In this document: piece after piece, positions 13,170 through 34,378 of the stretch
Layout: every line of letters starts with the position of its first letter
Numbering within the stretch: the stretch's first letter is position 1
Assembly: GCA_026692705.1 (NCBI GenBank)
Contig: JAPLOE010000122.1
Span: forward strand, 1-36,802
DNA from: Planctomycetota bacterium
Lineage (GTDB): Bacteria; Planctomycetota; UBA1135; GCA-002686595
Length of the DNA: 36,802 nt
Direction: 5' to 3'
The notes under the pieces: generated by a model
The model's database searches: none
What the model was told of the DNA's origin: nothing
What the model saw: only the letters and a program-made list of their open reading frames with translations
Program-made: the position numbers and the translations under genes

Positions 13170-16100
13170 TCAGGGACAAACCATGACGCGCAACGCGTCG
13201 CTCAATCCGAAGTTGTTCGGCGGCGCGTAGCCGTTGTCGCGCGACCACCACTGGAAGTGCAGGACCTGGCCCGCGAGGAAGCCGTTGGAGGCGAAGAGCG
13301 TGTCGTTGAACGGCTGCGCGTAGGCGCCGGAGCAGTCGGTGCCGCTGGTCGAGCCGCCCGAGGACTGCACGGGCATGCGGCGAATCGGGACGCCGACGCA
13401 GCGCACGCCGGCGCCCAGCGGAGCGAAGGTCGCGCTCGTGCCCCACATGAGCAGGCCCTGGCGGTTGTTGATCACGTTCGAGGCGCGCACGACGAAGTCG
13501 TCGGGGGCGCCGAGCGTCGCCGAGCCGGTGGCGGAGATCACGGGGAAGCAGCCCTGGCTGTTCTGCAGCGCGAGGCAGTAGCGCGTGCCGAGGCAGTCGC
13601 ACTCGTCGGGGTTGCCGTTGAGGTCCGTGTCGGCGCTCGTGCCGGAGATCACGTCGCAGGCGTCGTCGACACCGTTGCCGTTGCAATCGATCGGCGTGCG
13701 GTAGTGGATGCGCAGCAGGTTGGCGCCGGTCGAGGGAGCGGAGCCGCCCTCGTCCGCGTAGAGGTCGGTGAAGTACAGGCCATCGGGGCCGGCCTCGAGG
13801 CCGCAGACGGTCGCGCGCCGGTAGCCGGAGTACTCGACGAACGGCAGCGGCCCGGAGAGCAGCGCTCCGTTGGCGTCGAGGATCCACTCGGTGATGCGCT
13901 TGCCCTGCGTGTTCTGGCCGCTCGCGTAGGTCGGGCCCGATTCGGTCACGAAGGCGTGGCCCCACTTGGAGACGGGGAAGCCGGAGCCGCCGAAGCTCTC
14001 GGGCTGGATGAACGCGAGGTTCACCGGGCCGGCGGCGGGGTTCCAGTTGTGCAGCGCGAAGTTCTGCATCGACGCGTCGCTGCCGTCCCACAGGTAGTTG
14101 CGGCCCATCACGATCTTCGCGAAACGGTCGACGCTCGGGCCGTTCTCGACCACGTACTGCGAGTTGTCCGCCGCGCGCCACTCGCCGCCGAAGGGGTTGC
14201 GCACGCCGTAGGCGTACACGTAGTCGCGCGACGTGATGCCGTCGAGCGCGTTGTAGAACGGGTTCGACGTCACCGGCGTGCCGTCGAGGTTGAGGCGCAG
14301 GATCTTGCCGCGGAACGAGTTGAGGTTCTGCGCGGTCGCGGCGTCGAAGCCGTCGCCCATGTGGCACAGGAGCGTGCCGTCGGGCAGCAGCGTCAGGTTC
14401 GAGATCTGGTGCGACTGGCCCTGCACTTCGCCGGGCATGTCGAGGATCGTCGTCGCGGTCGCCATCGTGCGGCCGCCGTCGCTGCTCGAGAAGCGCACGA
14501 GCTTGGGGTTGTGGTTCTGCGGCGAGCCCGCGGGCGCGTAGAGCATCGCCACGATCAGGTCGCCGCTCACGGGATCGACCGCGAGTCCGGTGACACCTTG
14601 CTCGCCGGAACCGGGGAATGCGCCTGTCGGCGGGAAGTTGAGCAGGCCACTCGCGTACTCGATCACCGTGCGGTTGCGCAGCACGGTCTTCACGCGGCCG
14701 TAGAGCTCGGTGACGTACAGGAACGGCGCCGTCGTCGGGCCCTGCGGGCTGACGCCGGGCACGAAGGCGATGTTGATCGGCAGCTGGAAGCCGGTCGCGA
14801 AGACCTCGACCTCGTAACCGGGCTGGCGCGCGCTCCACGGCGGGCTGGGCGAGCGCGCGAGCTGGTTGAACACCGGCTGCGATTGAGCGTTGGAAGCGAC
14901 GAACGCGGCCCCGCTCGTGGCGATCCACCACTGCGCGCTCGCGCCGGCGGCGAGCGAGACGGGCGGCAGGAAGATGCGGTGCGACTCGCAGTGGTCGTCG
15001 CGCAGCGTGAGGTCGGTGGCGGGCAAGGAGAGGCCCGAGGATCCGGCGATGAACCGCCCGCGGACGTCGGCGGGCGCCGCCAGTTCCGGGGCGTCGAAGC
15101 GCTGGTTGGAGAGGCCGTCGGCGCCGACGAGCTCGTACAGCAGGTCGCCGGCGGCGCCTTCGATCGCGAGGCGCGACGGTAGCGCGGCGAAGGGGAAGAT
15201 TGCGGGCGAACCGGAGCTCGAGATGCGCCACGTGGGCGGCGGAGTCGCGGCGACGTCCTCGAGCTCGAGCGCGAAGGTCTGCGTCGCGGCGCCGGTCGAG
15301 AACGTGCGCTGCGACCACGCGCTCCAGCGCGTCAGCGGATCGCCGCTGTCGTCGGAGTGGCGCACGCGCAGCACGTAGGCCGTCGACGGCAGGAGCTCGG
15401 AACGCCCCGCGTGCGAGTTCTCGAACGTTCCGTCGCCCAGGTGCGTGTGCACGCGCTCGACACCCTGGATGCAGAGCGTCGACCACACGCGCTGCGACGG
15501 GCTCGCGAGCCAGATCTCCCAGTCCGTGCAGAAGTGCAGGTTGCCCGCGTCGGGATCGGCGAAGGGCGCCGTCTCCATGTGCACGTCCGCGGCGTTGAGC
15601 ACGACGCCGTTGGTCGAAGGCTCGGTGATCGTCGGCGCGAACGGAGGCAGGTTGCCGCCGGTCGCGGGCGTCTCGTCGAAGGTCCAGTCGAGCAGGTCGT
15701 GCGCTTCCGCGAGGCCGCCGGTGGCGGCGGTGAAGCCGACCCAGGCCTTGCCGTTGTCGAGCGAGAGGACGGTGTCGAGCTGCAGCGGCGCGCTCGCGAC
15801 GGGCAGCGCGAGGTTGTCGACGTACACCGACAGCGTGCCGGCCGCGTAGCGGATGCGCGCGGTGTGCACGTTGCCGTCCGCGAAGTCGGGCACGGCGGTC
15901 GAGCTCGCGATCGAGAAGCTCTCGACGACGCTGTTCGCGCCCGGGCCGCCGGTGTGGACGCTGACGTGCAGGCCGGCGGGATCGTTGACGTTCGCGACCG
16001 AGCACGAGCCGTTCGAGAACGTGTCGAACTCGACCGCGAGGCTGTCGACGAGGCCGTGGTAGCCGAGCTCACACCCCGCGCCACCCAGTGGCGAGGCCGA

Positions 16101-16394
16101 GCCGTTCTGCAGCACGAACGCGAAGCCGTCGGCGCCGGCTGCAGCGCCGAGCTGGAAGCGGAAGGTCGTCTCGAAGCCCGTCGACACCGACTGCTTCGTC
16201 GTGGCCCACGCTCCGCCGGCGACGTTGCCGGTCGCGGGCACGAGGCGCAGCACGTTGCCGACGCGCGCGGCGGAACCGACGAGCGTCAGGCCGCTCGTGC
16301 TCGCGAAGTCGGGGAAAGCGAGGTCGGCGCGCGCGGGCGCGGCGAGGACGAGGGCGGCGAGCAGCAGCGGGAGCCGAGGGGCGAAGGGGGGCAT
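13170..16394 (-). CDS. Secreted lectin / sugar-dehydrogenase-like propeller protein with shared C-terminal domain
   Basis: 1074 residues from the ATG at 16394. Signal peptide 1-23 ends APARA. Residues ~27-241 look like an L-type (legume-lectin-like) domain: GADGFAFVLQNG, VDSLAVEFDTFSNG and KAWVGFTAATGG. Residues ~250-370 resemble fibronectin-like beta sequence. Residues ~526-905 match the glucose/sorbosone dehydrogenase (PQQ-type, six-bladed) propeller: GYEVEVFATGFQLPINIAF, YVTELYGRVK, GEQGVTGLAVDP, FRGKILRLNLDG and YAYGVRNPFG. A CNGNGVDDACD motif follows, typical of planctomycete secreted proteins and probably calcium-binding. Residues 939-1074 are the shared C-terminal domain. Its start overlaps the open frame of the upstream lipoprotein gene by 109 bp. 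Catalytic activity is uncertain; extracellular carbohydrate binding is the safest inference. Confidence 0.88.
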   Translation of the reverse strand: MPPFAPRLPLLLAALVLAAPARADLAFPDFASTSGLTLVGSAARVGNVLRLVPATGNVAGGAWATTKQSVSTGFETTFRFQLGAAAGADGFAFVLQNGSASPLGGAGCELGYHGLVDSLAVEFDTFSNGSCSVANVNDPAGLHVSVHTGGPGANSVVESFSIASSTAVPDFADGNVHTARIRYAAGTLSVYVDNLALPVASAPLQLDTVLSLDNGKAWVGFTAATGGLAEAHDLLDWTFDETPATGGNLPPFAPTITEPSTNGVVLNAADVHMETAPFADPDAGNLHFCTDWEIWLASPSQRVWSTLCIQGVERVHTHLGDGTFENSHAGRSELLPSTAYVLRVRHSDDSGDPLTRWSAWSQRTFSTGAATQTFALELEDVAATPPPTWRISSSGSPAIFPFAALPSRLAIEGAAGDLLYELVGADGLSNQRFDAPELAAPADVRGRFIAGSSGLSLPATDLTLRDDHCESHRIFLPPVSLAAGASAQWWIATSGAAFVASNAQSQPVFNQLARSPSPPWSARQPGYEVEVFATGFQLPINIAFVPGVSPQGPTTAPFLYVTELYGRVKTVLRNRTVIEYASGLLNFPPTGAFPGSGEQGVTGLAVDPVSGDLIVAMLYAPAGSPQNHNPKLVRFSSSDGGRTMATATTILDMPGEVQGQSHQISNLTLLPDGTLLCHMGDGFDAATAQNLNSFRGKILRLNLDGTPVTSNPFYNALDGITSRDYVYAYGVRNPFGGEWRAADNSQYVVENGPSVDRFAKIVMGRNYLWDGSDASMQNFALHNWNPAAGPVNLAFIQPESFGGSGFPVSKWGHAFVTESGPTYASGQNTQGKRITEWILDANGALLSGPLPFVEYSGYRRATVCGLEAGPDGLYFTDLYADEGGSAPSTGANLLRIHYRTPIDCNGNGVDDACDVISGTSADTDLNGNPDECDCLGTRYCLALQNSQGCFPVISATGSATLGAPDDFVVRASNVINNRQGLLMWGTSATFAPLGAGVRCVGVPIRRMPVQSSGGSTSGTDCSGAYAQPFNDTLFASNGFLAGQVLHFQWWSRDNGYAPPNNFGLSDALRVMVCP
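13173..13580 (-). other. Shared C-terminal domain, copy 3
   Basis: This codes for the last 136 residues of the lectin/dehydrogenase-like protein. Landmarks: YC, GC, GLLMWG, RCVGVP, R-x-x-x-Q, GG, CSG, FQWWSRD, LSDALRV and a terminal VCP. Confidence 0.8.
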
Positions 16395-22198: not shown

Positions 22199-25006
22199 AT
22201 GTTCCATTCGATCAAGTCGCGCTTCCTCCTGGCCTTCAGCTTGCTCGCCGGCGTCCCGCTCGCCGTGGTCGGCTGGTTCACGGCGGACCAGAGCGCGGCG
22301 ACCCTCGAACGCGCCACCGGACAGGAGCTCGCCGCCAAGGCCCGTCAGGCCTCCGACACGATCGACCGCAACCTGTTCGAGCGCTACGGCGACGTGCAGG
22401 CCTTCGCGTACCACCCTTGGGCGCGCGGCAGTGCGGCCGAGTGCGTTCAGGCGGCCGACTTCTATGCGCGCACGTACGGCATCTACGACCTGCTCCTCAT
22501 CGCCGACCGCGACGGTCGCATCGTGGCGTGCAACACCGTCGACGGGACGGGGGCGGCGCTCGACACCTCGGCGCTGATCGGCCGCGACGTCTCGGCCGAG
22601 CCCTGGTTTCGCGCCTGCATCGGTGGCGAGACGCGGCCGGGCGAGACCTGGTACGCGGACCCGGTCTTCGATCCGCTCGTCGAGCGCGTGACCGGCCAGC
22701 ATTCGCTCACGCTGAACTTCAGCGCACCGATCGTCGACGACTCCGGTCAGGTCGTGCGCGTCTGGTCGAACCGCGCCTCTTGGCACCGCATCTGTGATCA
22801 GGTGCTCGAGGAGCTGCGCACGGAATACGCCGAGCGCGGCGTGACCGTCGAGACGCAGATCCTCCGCAAGGACGGCGTGCTGCTCTCCGACGCGGACCCC
22901 GAATCCGTGCTGTCCGTCAACCTCGCCCAGCGTGGGCTGGAATCGGCTCGCAAGGTCTGTGAGGGCGAGTCGGGCTTCCTCACCGAACAGGATCTGCGGC
23001 ACGAGAAGCTGCAGATCAACGGCTTTGCCGCGTCGCGCGGGGCGCTGGGATTCCCCGGCTACGGCTGGGGCGTGCTCGTGCGCATGCCGCCCGACGACGT
23101 CCAGCGCGTCGCGGCCGGAATTCGCGACACGATCGTGCTGATCACGGGTGGGGCGCTGCTGCTCGCCTGCCTCGGCGCGTGGTGGCTCGCCAGCCGCATG
23201 GCCTCGCCGATCGTCGCTGCCTCGCGCGCGATCGACGACCTGTCGATCGGAGCGCTCGAGCGCCAGTGGCGCCACGACTCGCGCGACGAGCTGGGAGCGA
23301 TGGCGCAGTCGCTCGAGAGCGCGCGCGCGACGCTGCAGCGGCTGATCCGCGACCTCGGCGAGCTCGTGCGTGCCGCGCAGGAGGGCCAGCTCGACAAGCG
23401 CATCGACGCCGCGAGCTACCAGGGCGGCTATGGCGAGCTGTGCGCGGGCGTGAACCACATGCTCGACCGTCTCGGCGAGCCGCTCAACGCGACGCGCGGC
23501 TCGCTCGAACGGCTGGCGCGCGGGGAACTGACGCTGGAATCGGCGCAGCGCTTCCCCGGCGACTGGGGCGAGGTGCGCGGCTCGCTGCAGCGCACGTCCG
23601 ACTCGGTTTCGGAGCTCGTCGCGGAGCTCGAGCGCCTGATCGCCGCCACGCGCGACGGACGGCTCGGCGAACGCGCGGCCGTCGAGCGCTTCGACGGCGC
23701 CTACCGCCAGCTGTGCGAGGGCGTGAACCAGATGCTCGACGCGGTTTCCGAGCCGGTGCAGGCCAGTTCCCGCGCGCTCGAGCGCATCGCCCGGGGCGAG
23801 CTCGGCGCCGGCGAGGCGACCAATTTCCGCGGCGACTTCGTCGCGATCCAGTCCGGCCTCGCGGGAACGCGGGCAGCGATCCAGGAACTCGTGGCGCAGA
23901 TCACGCGTCTGTCCCACTCGGCCGCGAAGGGCGAGCTCGACGAGCGCGCGGATTCCCGCCAGCTGCACGGCGGCTACCGCGAGCTGTGCGCCAGCCTCAA
24001 CGCGATGCTCGACGCCATGCTCGGGCCCGTGCACGAGGCGTTGACCACGCTCGACGCCCTCGCGGCGCGCGACCTCACGGTGCAGATGAACGGCCAGTAC
24101 CTCGGCGATCACGCGCGGGTCAAGGATGCGCTCAACCTCGCGGTCGCGGCGATGCGCGAGGCGCTCTCGGACCTGTCGCGGGGAGCCGCGTCGATCGGAG
24201 ACTCCGCGGCCAGCCTGACCTCGATCAGTGGCCGGCTGGCGGTCAGCGCTCGCCAGTCCGCCTCCGTCGCCGCGTCGACCGCACAGGCCTCGGAAGAGGT
24301 GCTGACCGGCAATCGCAACGTCTCCGCCGCCGCGGTCGAGATGCAGGCGAGCATCTCCGAGATCGCCGCCAACGCCGCGCAGGCGACGAGCGTCGTGCGC
24401 ACCGCGGTCGACACCGCAGGTTCCGCGCGGGCGGCGATGGGGCAGCTTGCGGCCGATGCCCAGCGCGTGGCCGGCGCCGTCGAGCTGATCCGCACGATCG
24501 CCGCGCAGACCAACTTGCTCGCGCTCAACGCCTCGATCGAGGCGGCTCGCGCTGGTGAGGCCGGGCGCGGCTTCGCGGTCGTCGCGGACGAGGTCAAGCA
24601 GCTCGCCTCCCAGAGCGCCGGCGCCACGGTCGAGATCTCCCAGAGCATCAAGGCCATGCACGCGAGCACGAAGTCGGCCGAGGAGGCGCTCGCGAGCATC
24701 GTGCAGGTGGTGAGCGAGGTCGACCGCATCTCGACCTCGATCGCCGGCGCCGTCGAAGAGCAGTCCGCGACGACGCGGCAGATCAGCGTCGTCGCCGCCG
24801 ACGCGGTGCAACGCAGCTCCGAGATCGCCGCCAACGTGCAGCAGTTCAACGACGCCGCGCGGGCCACGCTCACCGATGCCGAGGCCACCGACAGGTCCGC
24901 GGCCGAGCTGCAACGGCTCGCCGCGCACCTGTCCGAGCTCGCCTCGAGCTTCCGCATCCGCAGCGAAACACCGCCGCGCCGGCTCGTCGAGCGCGGCGCG
25001 GCCTGA
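22199..25006 (+). CDS. Methyl-accepting chemotaxis protein with Cache-like sensor and poly-HAMP-like array
   Basis: 935 residues from the ATG at 22199; the frame stays open upstream (to 22007), but that part is Pro-rich leader sequence. TM1 is about residues 9-28 and TM2 about 311-332. The external region between them looks like a double Cache sensor: [28 protein letters not shown] and [21 protein letters not shown] segment follows TM2, then three tandem units exactly 91 residues apart (see 23423-24241). The signalling hairpin is intact: [19 protein letters not shown], then [20 protein letters not shown]. No C-terminal CheR/CheB-tethering pentapeptide is seen. No che or flagellar genes are near. 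A paralogue lies at 31562-34378 on the other strand. The stop codon abuts the stop of the next, convergent gene. Confidence 0.92.
23423..24241 (+). repeat. Three 91-residue HAMP-like repeats in chemoreceptor 1
   Basis: The motif G-[GA]-Y-[GR]-x-L-C-x-x-x-N-x-M-L-D begins at 23423, 23696 and 23969, exactly 273 nt (91 codons, 13 heptads) apart. Each unit also has a P about 20 residues in, and the first two carry an I/L-A-R-G-E-L and an F-x-GD element. The third unit drifts toward the signalling coiled coil. Similar ~90-residue poly-HAMP repeats are known in fungal Nik1-type histidine kinases. Confidence 0.85.
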
Positions 25007-27547: not shown

Positions 27548-27888
27548 GCGTCGATGGTGAGTTGGGTTCGCGTGGGGGTCTCTGACAGGAGTCTCGCGTC
27601 GTGCGAGGCCCGCGCAGCAAAGTGCGCGCGCCTCAAGCTGCGTGCGAGATCGCGCCAACTTCGCGACAAGCTCAGGGAATGACGTCTTGGCAGGTTCGTT
27701 GCGTGGGCTTGATGTCCGCAGTTTCGTGCGAGGACTGGAACAAGATTCCCACCCATGCGCGCTGCATCGGCGCCGACGAGCGCACGGCGCGAAACCGGCG
27801 CGAGGGAGTCCAGAAACCTGCATGGGGGGACCGATGTGCGGGGGAATCCGCGGCGTTCCGTCGTGGCGCCCCCCTTTCCGGACACCCC
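27548..27888. other. 341-bp divergent intergenic region
   Basis: No convincing gene; the open frames here have poor codon use. It holds a -24/-12 type promoter candidate at 27688-27702, G-runs at about 27820-27846 and a C6 run at 27869-27874 shortly before the pilin start. Confidence 0.6.
27688..27702 (+). promoter_or_regulatory. Possible sigma-54 (-24/-12) promoter of the pilin-like gene
   Basis: TGGCAGGTTCGTTGC matches the sigma-54 consensus TGGCAC-G-N4-TTGC at every fixed position except one, with correct spacing between GG and GC. It lies 187 bp before the pilin-like ATG and points toward it. Pilin genes are sigma-54-dependent in several other bacteria; that this holds here is inferred. 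Confidence 0.4.
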
Positions 27889-28617
27889 ATGCGCATGCAC
27901 ATCCACCCGCGGCGAGGCTTCACGCTCGTCGAGCTGCTCGTCGTCGTCGCGATCATCGCCATCCTGACGAGCTTCGCGATCCCGCGCTTCCTCGGCGCGC
28001 GCCGCTCGGCCAACGAGACCAGCGCGATCGCGACCATGCGCGCGATCGTCTCGGCGCAGATGAACCTGCAGGCGGCCGGCTCGATCGACACGAACGCCGA
28101 CGGGCAGTCGGAATTCGGCTACATGGCGGAGATGGCGGGCCTTGTCCCGGCGCGCATCTGCAGCGGCGGTTCAGCCGCGGCCGGGGTGGTCGGCACGAAC
28201 GAGCTCGCCCCGTCGCCGCTCCTGCCTTCGCTGGGCGCGATGAACAACGGCCTCGCGTCACACTCGGGCTACTACTTCCAGCTCTGGCTGCCGGGCAACG
28301 CCGGCTCGCCGGTCGGTGGCCTCGCCGAGGACGCCGGCGGCGGCAAGCTCAGCGCGCCCTTCCCCGACTCGGACGCGAGCGAGACCGGCTTCTGCGCCTA
28401 CGCGTGGCCGATGAACGCCGGCGGCACGGGCCAGCGCTGCTTCTTCGTCAATCAGGAAGGCGTGATCCTCGAGACCTCCAACCGCACGTCGGGCTACTCC
28501 GGGCCGACCGGCGGCCCTGAGTTCGACGCGGCCTTCAGCATCGACGACGACATGAGCGCGAACTTCGCGCGCGGTGTCGCGGGCGTCGACGGCAACGTCT
28601 GGAACCCGGTCCAGTAG
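27889..28617 (+). CDS. Type IV pilin-like / pseudopilin protein
   Basis: 242 residues from the ATG at 27889 (a second ATG two codons later is equally possible). The N-terminus is a classic prepilin signal: basic leader HIHPRRG, cleavage before F, then FTLVELLVVVAIIAILTSFA with Glu at +5 and a ~20-residue hydrophobic helix. The processed protein would have Phe1. The globular part has few Cys (ARICSGG, TGFCAYAWP, QRCFFV) and contains the AYAWPMNAGG segment often seen in planctomycete pseudopilins. It would be processed by a PilD-type peptidase and assembled by a type II secretion or type IV pilus machine, none of which is in the window. A C6 run lies 15-20 nt before the start. Confidence 0.88.
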   Translation: MRMHIHPRRGFTLVELLVVVAIIAILTSFAIPRFLGARRSANETSAIATMRAIVSAQMNLQAAGSIDTNADGQSEFGYMAEMAGLVPARICSGGSAAAGVVGTNELAPSPLLPSLGAMNNGLASHSGYYFQLWLPGNAGSPVGGLAEDAGGGKLSAPFPDSDASETGFCAYAWPMNAGGTGQRCFFVNQEGVILETSNRTSGYSGPTGGPEFDAAFSIDDDMSANFARGVAGVDGNVWNPVQ

Positions 28618-29151: not shown

Positions 29152-29264
29152 GGGGAATGAAGCCGCACAGGGTAGCGTCCGCCGAACGCAGGCCGTTCGC
29201 GCTGCGGGGCCGGCCGGAGGAAAAAACTGCGGAACTCGCGCTCCCAGGAAGGGTTGACCGCGGG

Positions 29265-30875
29265 ATGGCCCCCCCGGTTCGGCGCGCGGCTCTGGCCGCG
29301 GCCCTCGTGTTTCCGTCGCTCCTTGCTCCCGCTTTCCCGTCGCGCTCCGTCGGCGTGTTGCCCCAGGAGGGGCGCCCCGCACGGCCGTCGGCTCCGGCCG
29401 AAGAGCTGCGCCGCTTCTCCTTCGACAGCGAGAGCGTGCTCGGCACCTCGCTGCACCTCGAGCTCGCCGCGCCCGCTTCGGTGCTCAAGCCGGCGCGCGT
29501 GGCGCTGATGGACGAGATCGAGCGGCTCGAGAAGATCCTGAGCACGTACCAGCCGCGCAGCGAGCTGCGCAAGCTGCCGCGGCCGTGCGCGGCGACGCCG
29601 GCGTCGAAGGAGCTGCGCGAGGTGCTGCACGCGGCCGAGCGCTGGATGAAGGACTCCGGCGGCACGTTCCATCCCGGCGTGCAGGTGCTGAGCGAGCTGT
29701 GGAAGGCCGCGGAGCAGCGCGGCAGCGCGCCGACGACCGAGGAGCTCGCGGCGGCGAAGGCGAGGCTCGTGCCGCAGCTGTGGACGATCGACGACGCGGC
29801 GGGCACGGTCGCGTTGCTCAGCGACCTGCCGCTCACGTTCGACGCCTTCGCGAAGGGCTACATCCTCGACGCGGCCGTGGCGGCGGCGGTCAAGGCAGGA
29901 GCGCGCGACGTCGTGCTCGACATCGGCGGGGACGTGCGCGTGCACGGCGACGGCCGCGCGCGCATCGCGGTGGCCGACCCGCGCCAGCCCGCGGACAACG
30001 CCGACAAGCTTTGTGAACTCGACCTGCGCGGACTGGCGGTCGCGACGAGCGGCGGTTACGCGCGCGGCTTCGACATCGCGGGCCAGCACTTCTCGCACAT
30101 CTTCGATCCACGCACCGCCGCGCCGGTCACGGCCGTGTTGCAGGCGACGGTGGTCGCGCCCGATGCAGCGACGGCGGATGCGCTCGCGACGATCCTGAAC
30201 GTGCTCGCGCCGCAGGAAGGCCTCGCGCTCGTCGCGAAGGTGCCCGGGGCGGCGAGCCTCGTGATTGACGCGCAGGGCCAGCAACATGCGAGCCCCGAGT
30301 GGGCGAAGCACGTGCGCCAATCAGCGCCCGTCGTGGCTTCGGGGCCGAGCGTGCTGCCCGGTGGTGGGCAGCTCGTGCTGAGCTTCGAGCTGCAGCAGCC
30401 GCCGCCGGAAGCGGAGCGCGCGGGCGGCGACGAAGGTCGTGGAGGACGCGGCGGTCGCGAGCGTCGCGGTGGTGGCGGCTACCGTCGGCCCTACGTCGCG
30501 GCGTGGGTCGAGGACGCGCAGGGCCACGCGGTGCGCACGCTCGCGCTGTGGGTCGCGGAGCCCAAGTGGATTCCTGACCTGCGGCGCTGGAATCGCCTGT
30601 ATTCGCGCCGCGAGGACGACGTGCGCGCCGTCACGCGCGCGACGCGTGCGGCCGGCAAGTACGAGCTCGTCTGGGACGGCCGCGACGACACGGGCCAGCC
30701 GGTCGAGGCCGGGACGTTCACCGTCAACCTCGAGGTCGTGCGCGAGCACGGCACGTACCAGCTGCTGACGGCCTCGTTCGCCGCCGACGGCACGGAGAGT
30801 TCCGTCGCGCTGAAGGGCGATGGCATCGAGGTGAAGGCCGCGACGCTCGCCTATCGACTGGCCAAGAAGCCGTGA
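29265..30875 (+). CDS. apbE: FAD:protein FMN transferase (ApbE) fused to a DUF2271 domain
   Basis: 536 residues from the ATG at 29265, which gives a signal-like N-terminus (RRAALAAALVFPSLLAPAF). Residues ~50-335 are ApbE, which attaches FMN to threonines of exported proteins: EKILSTYQPRSELRKL, LTFDAFAKGYILDAA (the lysine-glycine active-site loop, a divergent form of DLGGIAKGY), VVLDIGGDVRVHG, VATSGGYARGF and FSHIFDPRTAAPV, then the Mg-site helix PDAATADALATIL. A Gly/Arg-rich linker (about nt 30420-30480) leads to a DUF2271 domain: RRPYVAAWVEDAQGHAVRTL, KWIPDLRRWNRL, KYELVWDGRDDTGQPVEAGT and VREHG. These two are usually separate neighbouring genes. The stop overlaps the start of the PepSY-type membrane gene. 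Confidence 0.92.
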   Translation: MAPPVRRAALAAALVFPSLLAPAFPSRSVGVLPQEGRPARPSAPAEELRRFSFDSESVLGTSLHLELAAPASVLKPARVALMDEIERLEKILSTYQPRSELRKLPRPCAATPASKELREVLHAAERWMKDSGGTFHPGVQVLSELWKAAEQRGSAPTTEELAAAKARLVPQLWTIDDAAGTVALLSDLPLTFDAFAKGYILDAAVAAAVKAGARDVVLDIGGDVRVHGDGRARIAVADPRQPADNADKLCELDLRGLAVATSGGYARGFDIAGQHFSHIFDPRTAAPVTAVLQATVVAPDAATADALATILNVLAPQEGLALVAKVPGAASLVIDAQGQQHASPEWAKHVRQSAPVVASGPSVLPGGGQLVLSFELQQPPPEAERAGGDEGRGGRGGRERRGGGGYRRPYVAAWVEDAQGHAVRTLALWVAEPKWIPDLRRWNRLYSRREDDVRAVTRATRAAGKYELVWDGRDDTGQPVEAGTFTVNLEVVREHGTYQLLTASFAADGTESSVALKGDGIEVKAATLAYRLAKKP

Positions 30876-31561: not shown

Positions 31562-34378
31562 TCAGGAAACGCCGGCCGTCTTGCGGCCGCGCGCCTGCGT
31601 GCCGAGCTCGAACTTGCGCACGAGCTCGTCGAGCTCGTTCGCGAGCCTCGCCACGTCGTCGGCCGTGCGCAGCGTCTCCTCGGCGCCGCCCGCGGTCGAG
31701 CTGGCGGCTTCGGCCACGCGCGAGATCGAGTGCGCGATCTCGGTCGAGCCCTTGGCGGCCTCGGTGACGTTGGCGCTGATCTCGCGCGTCGTCGCGGACT
31801 GCTCCTCGACGGCGCCGGCGATCATCGACGAGGCGTGCTGGACTTCCTGCACGGTCCCGATGATCTGCTCGATCGAGCCCGAGGCCTGCAGCGTGTCGGC
31901 CTGGATCGCGGTGATGCGCTCGGAGATCTGCTCGGTCGCCTTGCGCGTCTGGCTGGCGAGGTTCTTGACCTCGTCGGCCACGACCGCGAACCCGCGTCCG
32001 GCCTCGCCGGCGCGTGCGGCCTCGATCGTCGCGTTGAGCGCGAGCAGGTGGGTCTGCGAGGCGATCGCCGAGATCAGCTTGAGCACCTCGCCGACCTCGC
32101 CGCTCGACGCCGCGAGCTGCTTCATCGCCGTGCGCGTGACGCCGGCCTGCTCGACGGCCTTGGTCGCGACGGTCGAGGCGTGCTCGGCGCCGCGCGCGAT
32201 CTCCTTGATGCTCGAGGTCATCTGCTCGCTCGCCGTGGCGACCGACTGGATGCTGCGGCTGACCTGCTCGGCCGAGCTCGAGACCACGTTGGCCTCGTGC
32301 GAGGTCTGCGCGGCACCCGAGCCGAGCTGCTTGCCCGACGCGGACATCGAGGTCGACGAGCCCGTCAGGCTCGAAGCGCGCGTCGAGATCGCCAGCAGCG
32401 CCTCGCGCATGCCGGAAACGGCCTTGTTGACGGCGTTCTTGAGCTTCTCGTGGTCGCCGCGGAAAGCGCCGGTGATCTCGACGTCGAGGCGCTGGTCGGC
32501 GACCGACGCGAGCACCGTGATGGCCTCGTTGACGGGCCCGAGCAGCTCGTCGAGCATGCGGTTGATGCCGCTGCACAGCTCGCGGTAGCCACCGGCGAAG
32601 GCCGCGGCGTCGGCGCGCGTCGAGAGCTGGCCCGCCTGCGCGGCCGTCGTCAGGCGACGCGTCTGGTCGACGAGCCGGCCGAGGACCTCCGCGGTGCGCG
32701 CGAGGCTCTGGGTCATCTTGGCGTAGTCGCCCTGGTAGGCGCCCTTGAAGCGCAGCTCGAGATCACCGGCCGCGAGCCGCTCGAGCGCCTGCGCGCAGTC
32801 GCCGACCGGGGCCGAGACGGCTTCCAGCATCTGGTTCATGCCCGCGCACAGGTCGCGGTAGGCACCGTGGAACTGCTCGAGGTCGGCGCGCACGTCGAGC
32901 TGGCCGTTGCGCGCGGCGCCGATCAGCGTCTGCGCCTCGCCCGTCAGGCTCTTCAGCACGCGCGCGGTCTCGTGCAGGTTCTCCTCGACGCGCGACCAGT
33001 CGCCGCGGAAGCCGAGGCTCGCCGGGAGCTCGAGGTCGCCCGCGGCGATCTGCGCGAGCGCGTTGGCCGTGCCCTGCGCGGGCTCGGTCACGCCGTCGAG
33101 CATCTTGTTGATCGACTCGCACAGCTGGCGGTAAGCGCCGTCGAAGCGCGCGGCGTCCGAACGCTCGGAAAGCTTGCCCTCGTTGACCGAGGCGATCAGC
33201 TTGTCGGTGGTGCCGAGGATGTCGCGCAGGGCCACGATCGTGTGGTCGAGCGACGCGCTCATCGCACCGACCTCGTCGACGCCCTTGTGCTCGCTGAGCT
33301 CGCTCAGGTCACCCTTGGCGACCTTCTGCAGCACGTCCGCGCTGCGCGTGATCGGCTTGGCGATGCCGCGCGAGATCCACAGCGCGAGCACGAGCACGCC
33401 GACCGACATGCCGGCGATCATCAGGATCGAGAAGTTGCGCACGGCGACGACCGGCGCGAGCACGTCCTCGGACTTCGCGCGCAGCAGGCACGGCCACGTC
33501 GGGCCGCCGTCGTTCTCCTTGTCGATCGACGCGGCGAAGCCGTTGAGGTACTCGACGCCCGTGCGCGTGCTCGGCTCCTGCGTGTGGCCGGTCTGCCCCG
33601 CGATCGCCTTCTGCGCCGCGACGAGCCCCGACTCCGCCAGGTTGAACTTGAATTCCGCGGCCTTGTCGTTGTCATGCAGCACGACGCCGTCGGAGCGCAG
33701 GACCTGCATCTCGAAGGCGTAGCCCTTGCCCGCGAGCACCTCCTCCGTGCGCGCGACCAGCGGGCTGTGGATCAGGTCCCAGTTGGTGTGCATGGTCCAC
33801 ACGCGGACGAACTTGCCGTCCTTGTCGAACAGGGGGATCGACATGCAGATCGTGCGGCGCTCCTCGCCGTAGACTTCGCTGGCGAGCACGTCGTCCTCGG
33901 GGTTGAACCAGACCGGCTCGACACCCGGGCCGTTCTTCGCGGCCTCGCACGCGGCCTTGAACCACTCCTCTTCGCTGACGTCCTCGCCGACGATCTTCTC
34001 GGTGGCGAGCGACTTGCCCTTGGCGTCGACGCGGTTGGTCGCGACCACCTGGCCGTCGGTGTCGACGAGCGAGATCAGGTCATAGACCTCACCCGTGCGC
34101 ATGAAGCGGTCGGCGACTGGCGGGAAATCGTAGGCCCGCCCGGTCGCGGCCTCGGTGGCCGAGACGAGATGCAGCTCGTTGCAGCGCGCCTGCACCGCCC
34201 CGTGGATGTCCGCCGCGAGCTGCGTGGCAAGTTGCTGCAGCTCCTGGCTGGTCGAGCTCGTGATGCGCTCCTGCGACTTGTCGTAGAGCACGGCCGCGAC
34301 GACCATGGCAGGGATCACGCCGACGGCGAGGAACCAGACGGACAGCTTGGTGCGGATCGACTTGAACTGGAGTTTCAT
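31562..34378 (-). CDS. Methyl-accepting chemotaxis protein 2, Cache-like sensor and poly-HAMP-like array
   Basis: 938 residues from the ATG at 34378, where [16 protein letters not shown] opens the first membrane helix (about 10-30). The second helix is near residues 315-335 ([19 protein letters not shown]). The external part resembles a double Cache sensor: [30 protein letters not shown] and [23 protein letters not shown] follows (around [20 protein letters not shown]), then three units exactly 91 residues apart (see 32321-33139). The signalling tip is canonical: [19 protein letters not shown], then [20 protein letters not shown]. No CheR/CheB-tethering pentapeptide at the C-terminus. It is a clear paralogue of the receptor at 22199-25006, but with a different sensor sequence, so probably a different ligand. 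No che genes are in the window. Confidence 0.92.
32321..33139 (-). repeat. Three 91-residue HAMP-like repeats in chemoreceptor 2
   Basis: The motif G-[AG]-Y-R-x-L-C-x-x-[IM]-N-x-M-L begins at 33139, 32866 and 32593 on the minus strand, again exactly 273 nt apart. Units share [16 protein letters not shown] and F-x-GD / Y-x-GD elements with those of chemoreceptor 1, so the array predates the duplication of the two genes. Confidence 0.85.

Follow-up and report, generated by a model that had tools for sequence, protein, structure and literature searches.

The two chemoreceptors encoded in the window (the whole stretch of 36,802 nucleotides analyzed) are standard transmembrane poly-HAMP chemoreceptors, ordinary for their family, in which a canonical HAMP domain, three divergent A-B pairs of HAMP domains (seven HAMPs per receptor) and an MCP hairpin would very probably form a stalk relaying the signal of a dCache sensor, a reading to which we assign a probability of about 0.92. 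Receptors of this poly-HAMP type are already known and those of the window are only new examples of them; a literature search found no paper on planctomycete poly-HAMP receptors.

For translation, the likely start of each gene was used. Chemoreceptor 1 (P0001, 935 aa) is encoded at 22199..25006 on the plus strand, and its translation and Pfam matches yielded the order TM1, dCache-like sensor, TM2, canonical HAMP, three di-HAMP units and MCP signaling domain. The Pfam-matched part of its extracytoplasmic sensor spans 22301..22753 (PF02743, 21.3 bits, not reaching the cut-off of 45) and is followed by the membrane-proximal canonical HAMP, which carries DELG (23183..23338; PF00672), by di-HAMP units 1 to 3 of 91 aa each, at 23330..23602 (PF18947, 43.7 bits; HAMP A and HAMP B by the A/B models), 23603..23875 (56.1 bits) and 23876..24148 (51.1 bits), and by the MCP signaling domain with the hairpin tip GEAGRGF (24416..24859; PF00015, 92.8 bits). 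Chemoreceptor 2 (P0002, 938 aa; 31562..34378, minus strand) was found by translation, Pfam and alignment to have the same architecture, with the matched part of its dCache-like extracytoplasmic sensor at 33809..34267 (PF02743, 33.4 bits, sub-threshold), the membrane-proximal canonical HAMP, carrying DEVG, at 33221..33379 (PF00672, 51.1 bits), the three 91-residue units at 32960..33232, 32687..32959 and 32414..32686 (PF18947, 45.4, 59.6 and 59.2 bits, respectively) and the MCP signaling domain, again with the tip GEAGRGF, at 31706..32188 (PF00015, 118.3 bits), all on the minus strand. The two proteins are 39% identical overall, and their alignment is free of gaps between the first HAMP and a point close to the C terminus. 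Although the Pfam match is sub-threshold in both receptors, the sensors are predicted to adopt a two-subdomain dCache fold between the TM helices; this prediction comes from an AF2 model of the receptor 2 sensor (pLDDT 89), the receptor 1 sequence being included in its alignment, which Foldseek matched to dCache receptor domains with E values in the 1e-11 range.

The motif GxYxxLCxxxNxML, which the first-pass annotation had reported to recur at a fixed interval of 273 nt, was confirmed in three ungapped copies per receptor. It is located at residues 409, 500 and 591 of receptor 1 (DNA positions 23423, 23696 and 23969, plus strand) and at residues 414, 505 and 596 of receptor 2 (33139, 32866 and 32593, minus strand), the distance between successive motifs being exactly 91 residues throughout; a DNA repeat search likewise returned three copies spaced 273 and 273 nt in each gene. 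Upon ungapped self-comparison of the two proteins, offset 91 exceeded the other offsets by 7.1 and 7.6 s.d. and offset 182 did so by 6.3-6.4 s.d., while no offset besides these two rose above 2 s.d. in either protein. Judged from sequence, the recurrence lies far beyond chance, since each of the six units exceeds the cut-off of the Pfam HAMP_2 profile (PF18947; 43.7-59.6 against 24.3 bits), which also bears out the assignment of the repeats to the HAMP family. Genome-wide, HAMP_2 has six matches, and these are exactly the six units of the window.

Each 91-residue unit comprises two divergent HAMP domains, an A-type followed by a B-type. Glycines are conserved at unit columns 19, 32, 65 and 77. 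The spans between them, 13+33+12+33 = 91, were the same in the window receptors and in one protein each from Methanolobus and a gammaproteobacterium. The short spans of 12 and 13 residues correspond to the non-helical AS1-AS2 connectors of the HAMP domains, and each 33-residue span consists of AS2 of one HAMP and AS1 of the next. Separate models of the two unit halves alternated as A and B along the arrays in steps of +44 and +47 residues. DExG, the mark of canonical membrane-proximal HAMPs, was confined to the first HAMP of each receptor, the remaining HAMPs keeping the single Gly that marks divergent poly-HAMP domains (PMC3570549). An AF2 monomer model of the 368-residue array was poor (pLDDT 42) and was for that reason excluded from the fold search; in this low-confidence model, helices restart at 96, 187 and 278, that is every 91 residues, and seven non-helical connectors are present.

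Aer2 of Pseudomonas aeruginosa has 3+2 HAMPs, and its solved C-terminal HAMP pair reads A-B with the models built here. As in the window arrays, the divergent single-Gly HAMPs of Aer2 feed an MCP domain (3LNR, 3VOL; PMC3570549), the difference being that Aer2 is soluble and PAS-haem based, whereas the window receptors are transmembrane dCache proteins in which a canonical HAMP precedes three A-B pairs. In a sequence search of solved structures, the array retrieved a poly-HAMP construct of a histidine kinase (9trk; E 4e-12 and 6e-11) as well as Aer2 (3vol). The former match, to a histidine-kinase array, supports the kinship with Nik1-type kinase HAMP arrays that had been claimed for the repeats. 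Group III (Nik1-type) hybrid histidine kinases, fungal CaNik1 and bacterial homologues, likewise contain tandem HAMP pairs of ~90 residues (92 in CaNik1; PMC3848655), but they combine a period of 92 with kinase output and lack a transmembrane sensor, against a period of 91 and MCP output in the window receptors. Membership of the Nik1-type histidine kinase class itself (HisKA/HATPase, 92-residue pairs) was ruled out by the MCP output and the 91-residue pairs. A planctomycete of the same order was found to have a Nik1-type histidine kinase whose nine HAMP pairs show a period of 92 and a first gap of 97 (L118, G030:C4:198500-205500). FrzCD of Myxococcus xanthus resembles the window receptors in having a HAMP pair ahead of its MCP domain and differs from them in being cytoplasmic and DNA-binding, with two HAMPs of ~53 residues each (PMC12077210). 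The 36H receptors of Azospirillum brasilense, which we liken to those of the window by HAMP count, are MCPs with three HAMPs, fewer than the seven found here (PMC6759762); three is what we would expect if a canonical HAMP were joined by a single pair.

By analogy with Aer2 and related work, from which the conformer relay, the dimer state and the control of CheA are all taken, ligand binding to the dCache domain in the periplasm would move a TM helix, the canonical HAMP would respond to this motion by adopting one of its conformers, and the change of conformer would pass from HAMP to HAMP down the array to end on a B-type HAMP beside the signaling domain, which would set CheA activity. A B-type HAMP adjoins the MCP domain in both window receptors and in nearly all complete relatives read; the few cases in which the last HAMP before the output is not B-type concern cut-off or weakly scoring ends. 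A strict parity rule, under which the divergent HAMPs of every array would be even in number, was rejected, since methanogen arrays and part of the gammaproteobacterial ones end A-B-B. Counting against the main reading, no che genes were seen beside either receptor among the neighbors scanned, and CheW-domain matches numbered only two genome-wide, both within a single 939-aa open frame of another contig (G000:C206:6566-7444, plus strand), which may be a CheA carrying two CheW-like domains.

The arrays might alternatively serve mainly to set receptor length, receptors with equal numbers of units co-assembling in arrays of one height. Azospirillum receptors do segregate by length class, the 36H class having its three HAMPs (PMC6759762), and the two receptors of the window match in unit number. 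Of the five MCP signaling domains in the genome, however, the three outside the window receptors belong to MCPs without a HAMP_2 match, and a length-setting function is compatible with signal relay rather than exclusive of it. As the main function of the arrays we consider length-setting rather unlikely; by analogy with the Azospirillum receptors, height-setting is a possible secondary role beside the relay.

The period itself had been read in the first-pass annotation as 13 heptads, with a continuous coiled-coil register kept from HAMP to tip and selection for multiples of seven. To place it among relatives, we drew on a non-exhaustive sample of 83 non-redundant proteins, covering planctomycetes, gammaproteobacteria and other proteobacteria as well as Deinococcus and a methanogen; the initial multi-length alignment (A3) was discarded for its gaps. 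Among sampled chemoreceptors, those of gammaproteobacteria and archaea included, 91 is the commonest period, accounting for 54 of the 87 gaps between successive units of proteins in which an MCP tip was detected, with 90 found in another 20 and few others. The predominance of 91 in MCP-type arrays speaks for the heptad reading, as does the finding that in the 91 class the hydrophobic phase of AS2-B equals that of the next AS1-A. Against it stand the periods of 90 and 92 that recur in homologues, kinase-type proteins showing gaps of 92 (n=39) and a first gap of 97 (n=6). These differences in length map to the connectors or their border: the 90 class (13+33+11+33) has lost one residue in connector B, the 97 gaps have gained five there, and the 92 class (13+33+12+34) has gained one at the end of AS1-A, adjoining connector A. 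Neither of the single-HAMP steps, 44 and 47, is a multiple of seven, nor is the 33-residue helical span from glycine to glycine. Because the two short spans of each unit are non-helical HAMP connectors, no single coiled coil runs through it; about a quarter of the unit is not coiled coil, and its residue count divided by seven therefore does not describe the register. On the strength of the period survey, indel mapping and phase analysis, with their 90 and 92 classes, the heptad register was rejected as a general rule and we regard it as very improbable; a heptad effect could at most be a weaker preference within MCPs. The annotation had named two findings that would count against its view, of which non-heptad lengths in homologues (90 and 92) were observed and a lack of HAMP similarity was not. 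Nor is the fixed period unusual, as had been claimed, the exact 91 recurring in other planctomycetes, gammaproteobacteria and a methanogen. What has been kept in the unit are its two 33-residue helical stretches between glycines and the order of A and B, rather than a count of heptads. The exact period does not stem from a whole number of heptads; most likely it results from duplication adding a complete A-B pair, together with a near-zero tolerance of HAMP helices and connectors for changes in length.

The number of units ranged from 1 to about 14 across the survey and, as had been predicted, varied by whole 91-residue units among close relatives, which have 1, 3 or 4. Units within a window receptor are 33-38% identical to one another, against 84-98% (receptor 2) and 66-71% (receptor 1) between same-position units of congener orthologues, and in a unit tree each window unit pairs with the same-position unit of its orthologue and not with its neighbors. 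The units of the planctomycete set are thus old and position-specific. In a relative with four units (L033), units 1 and 4 group in the tree with units 1 and 3 of receptor 2, unit 2 shares its highest identity (51%) with window unit 2 and unit 3 is a complete additional one; another relative (L014), whose sensor is 49% identical to that of receptor 1, has a single unit. The distance from the Asn of the last unit to the tip was fixed at 184 residues in the four close relatives measured. Such natural one-, three- and four-unit relatives with related sensors would make a handy set with which to ask how far a signal reaches along a HAMP array. A gammaproteobacterial chemoreceptor of 1734 aa (L149, G186:C10:53200-59200) was seen to carry about 13-14 near-identical 91-residue di-HAMP units, with a mean identity of 78% and values up to 99%; this array is apparently a recent tandem expansion.

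The Cys of the motif falls at unit column 38, where it was present in 35/48 units of planctomycete MCPs and 2/178 elsewhere (related sequences counted separately), and in 32/39 units of the 91-residue planctomycete set. This enrichment is what favors the speculative proposal of the first-pass annotation that the Cys of each unit is a redox sensor modulating the array as a disulfide or thiol switch. The proposal went unsupported and is very unlikely: the Cys is clade-specific and replaceable, giving way to A, V, S or I in homologous units of congeners or of other members of the family and to a dominant V, T, A or I outside planctomycete MCPs, as expected for a small, mostly hydrophobic AS2 packing position; methanogen and gammaproteobacterial arrays carry a Cys at column 89 instead (45/68 units of the non-planctomycete 91-residue set), and no partner Cys or cofactor motif was seen. 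The related idea that planctomycetes fixed the Cys at this packing position in most A-type HAMPs of their chemoreceptor arrays, where thiol chemistry would tune or gate the array relay, strikes us as equally improbable. The Cys at column 38 seems to reflect a preference of the lineage at a packing position.

Some further observations were made in passing. A single archaeal genome, that of Methanolobus vulcani (G152, L100-L107), holds 41 HAMP_2 matches, with several receptors of up to nine units in which a Cys at column 89 is common and the arrays end A-B-B. Within the window, one protein combines a legume-lectin-like domain with a glucose/sorbosone dehydrogenase domain (13170-16394, minus strand), a second joins a DUF2950-like region to a type IV pilin-like N-terminal methylation motif (27601-28617, plus strand), and a third is a fusion of an ApbE flavin-transfer domain, DUF2271 and a FlgD-like Ig domain (29157-30875, plus strand).
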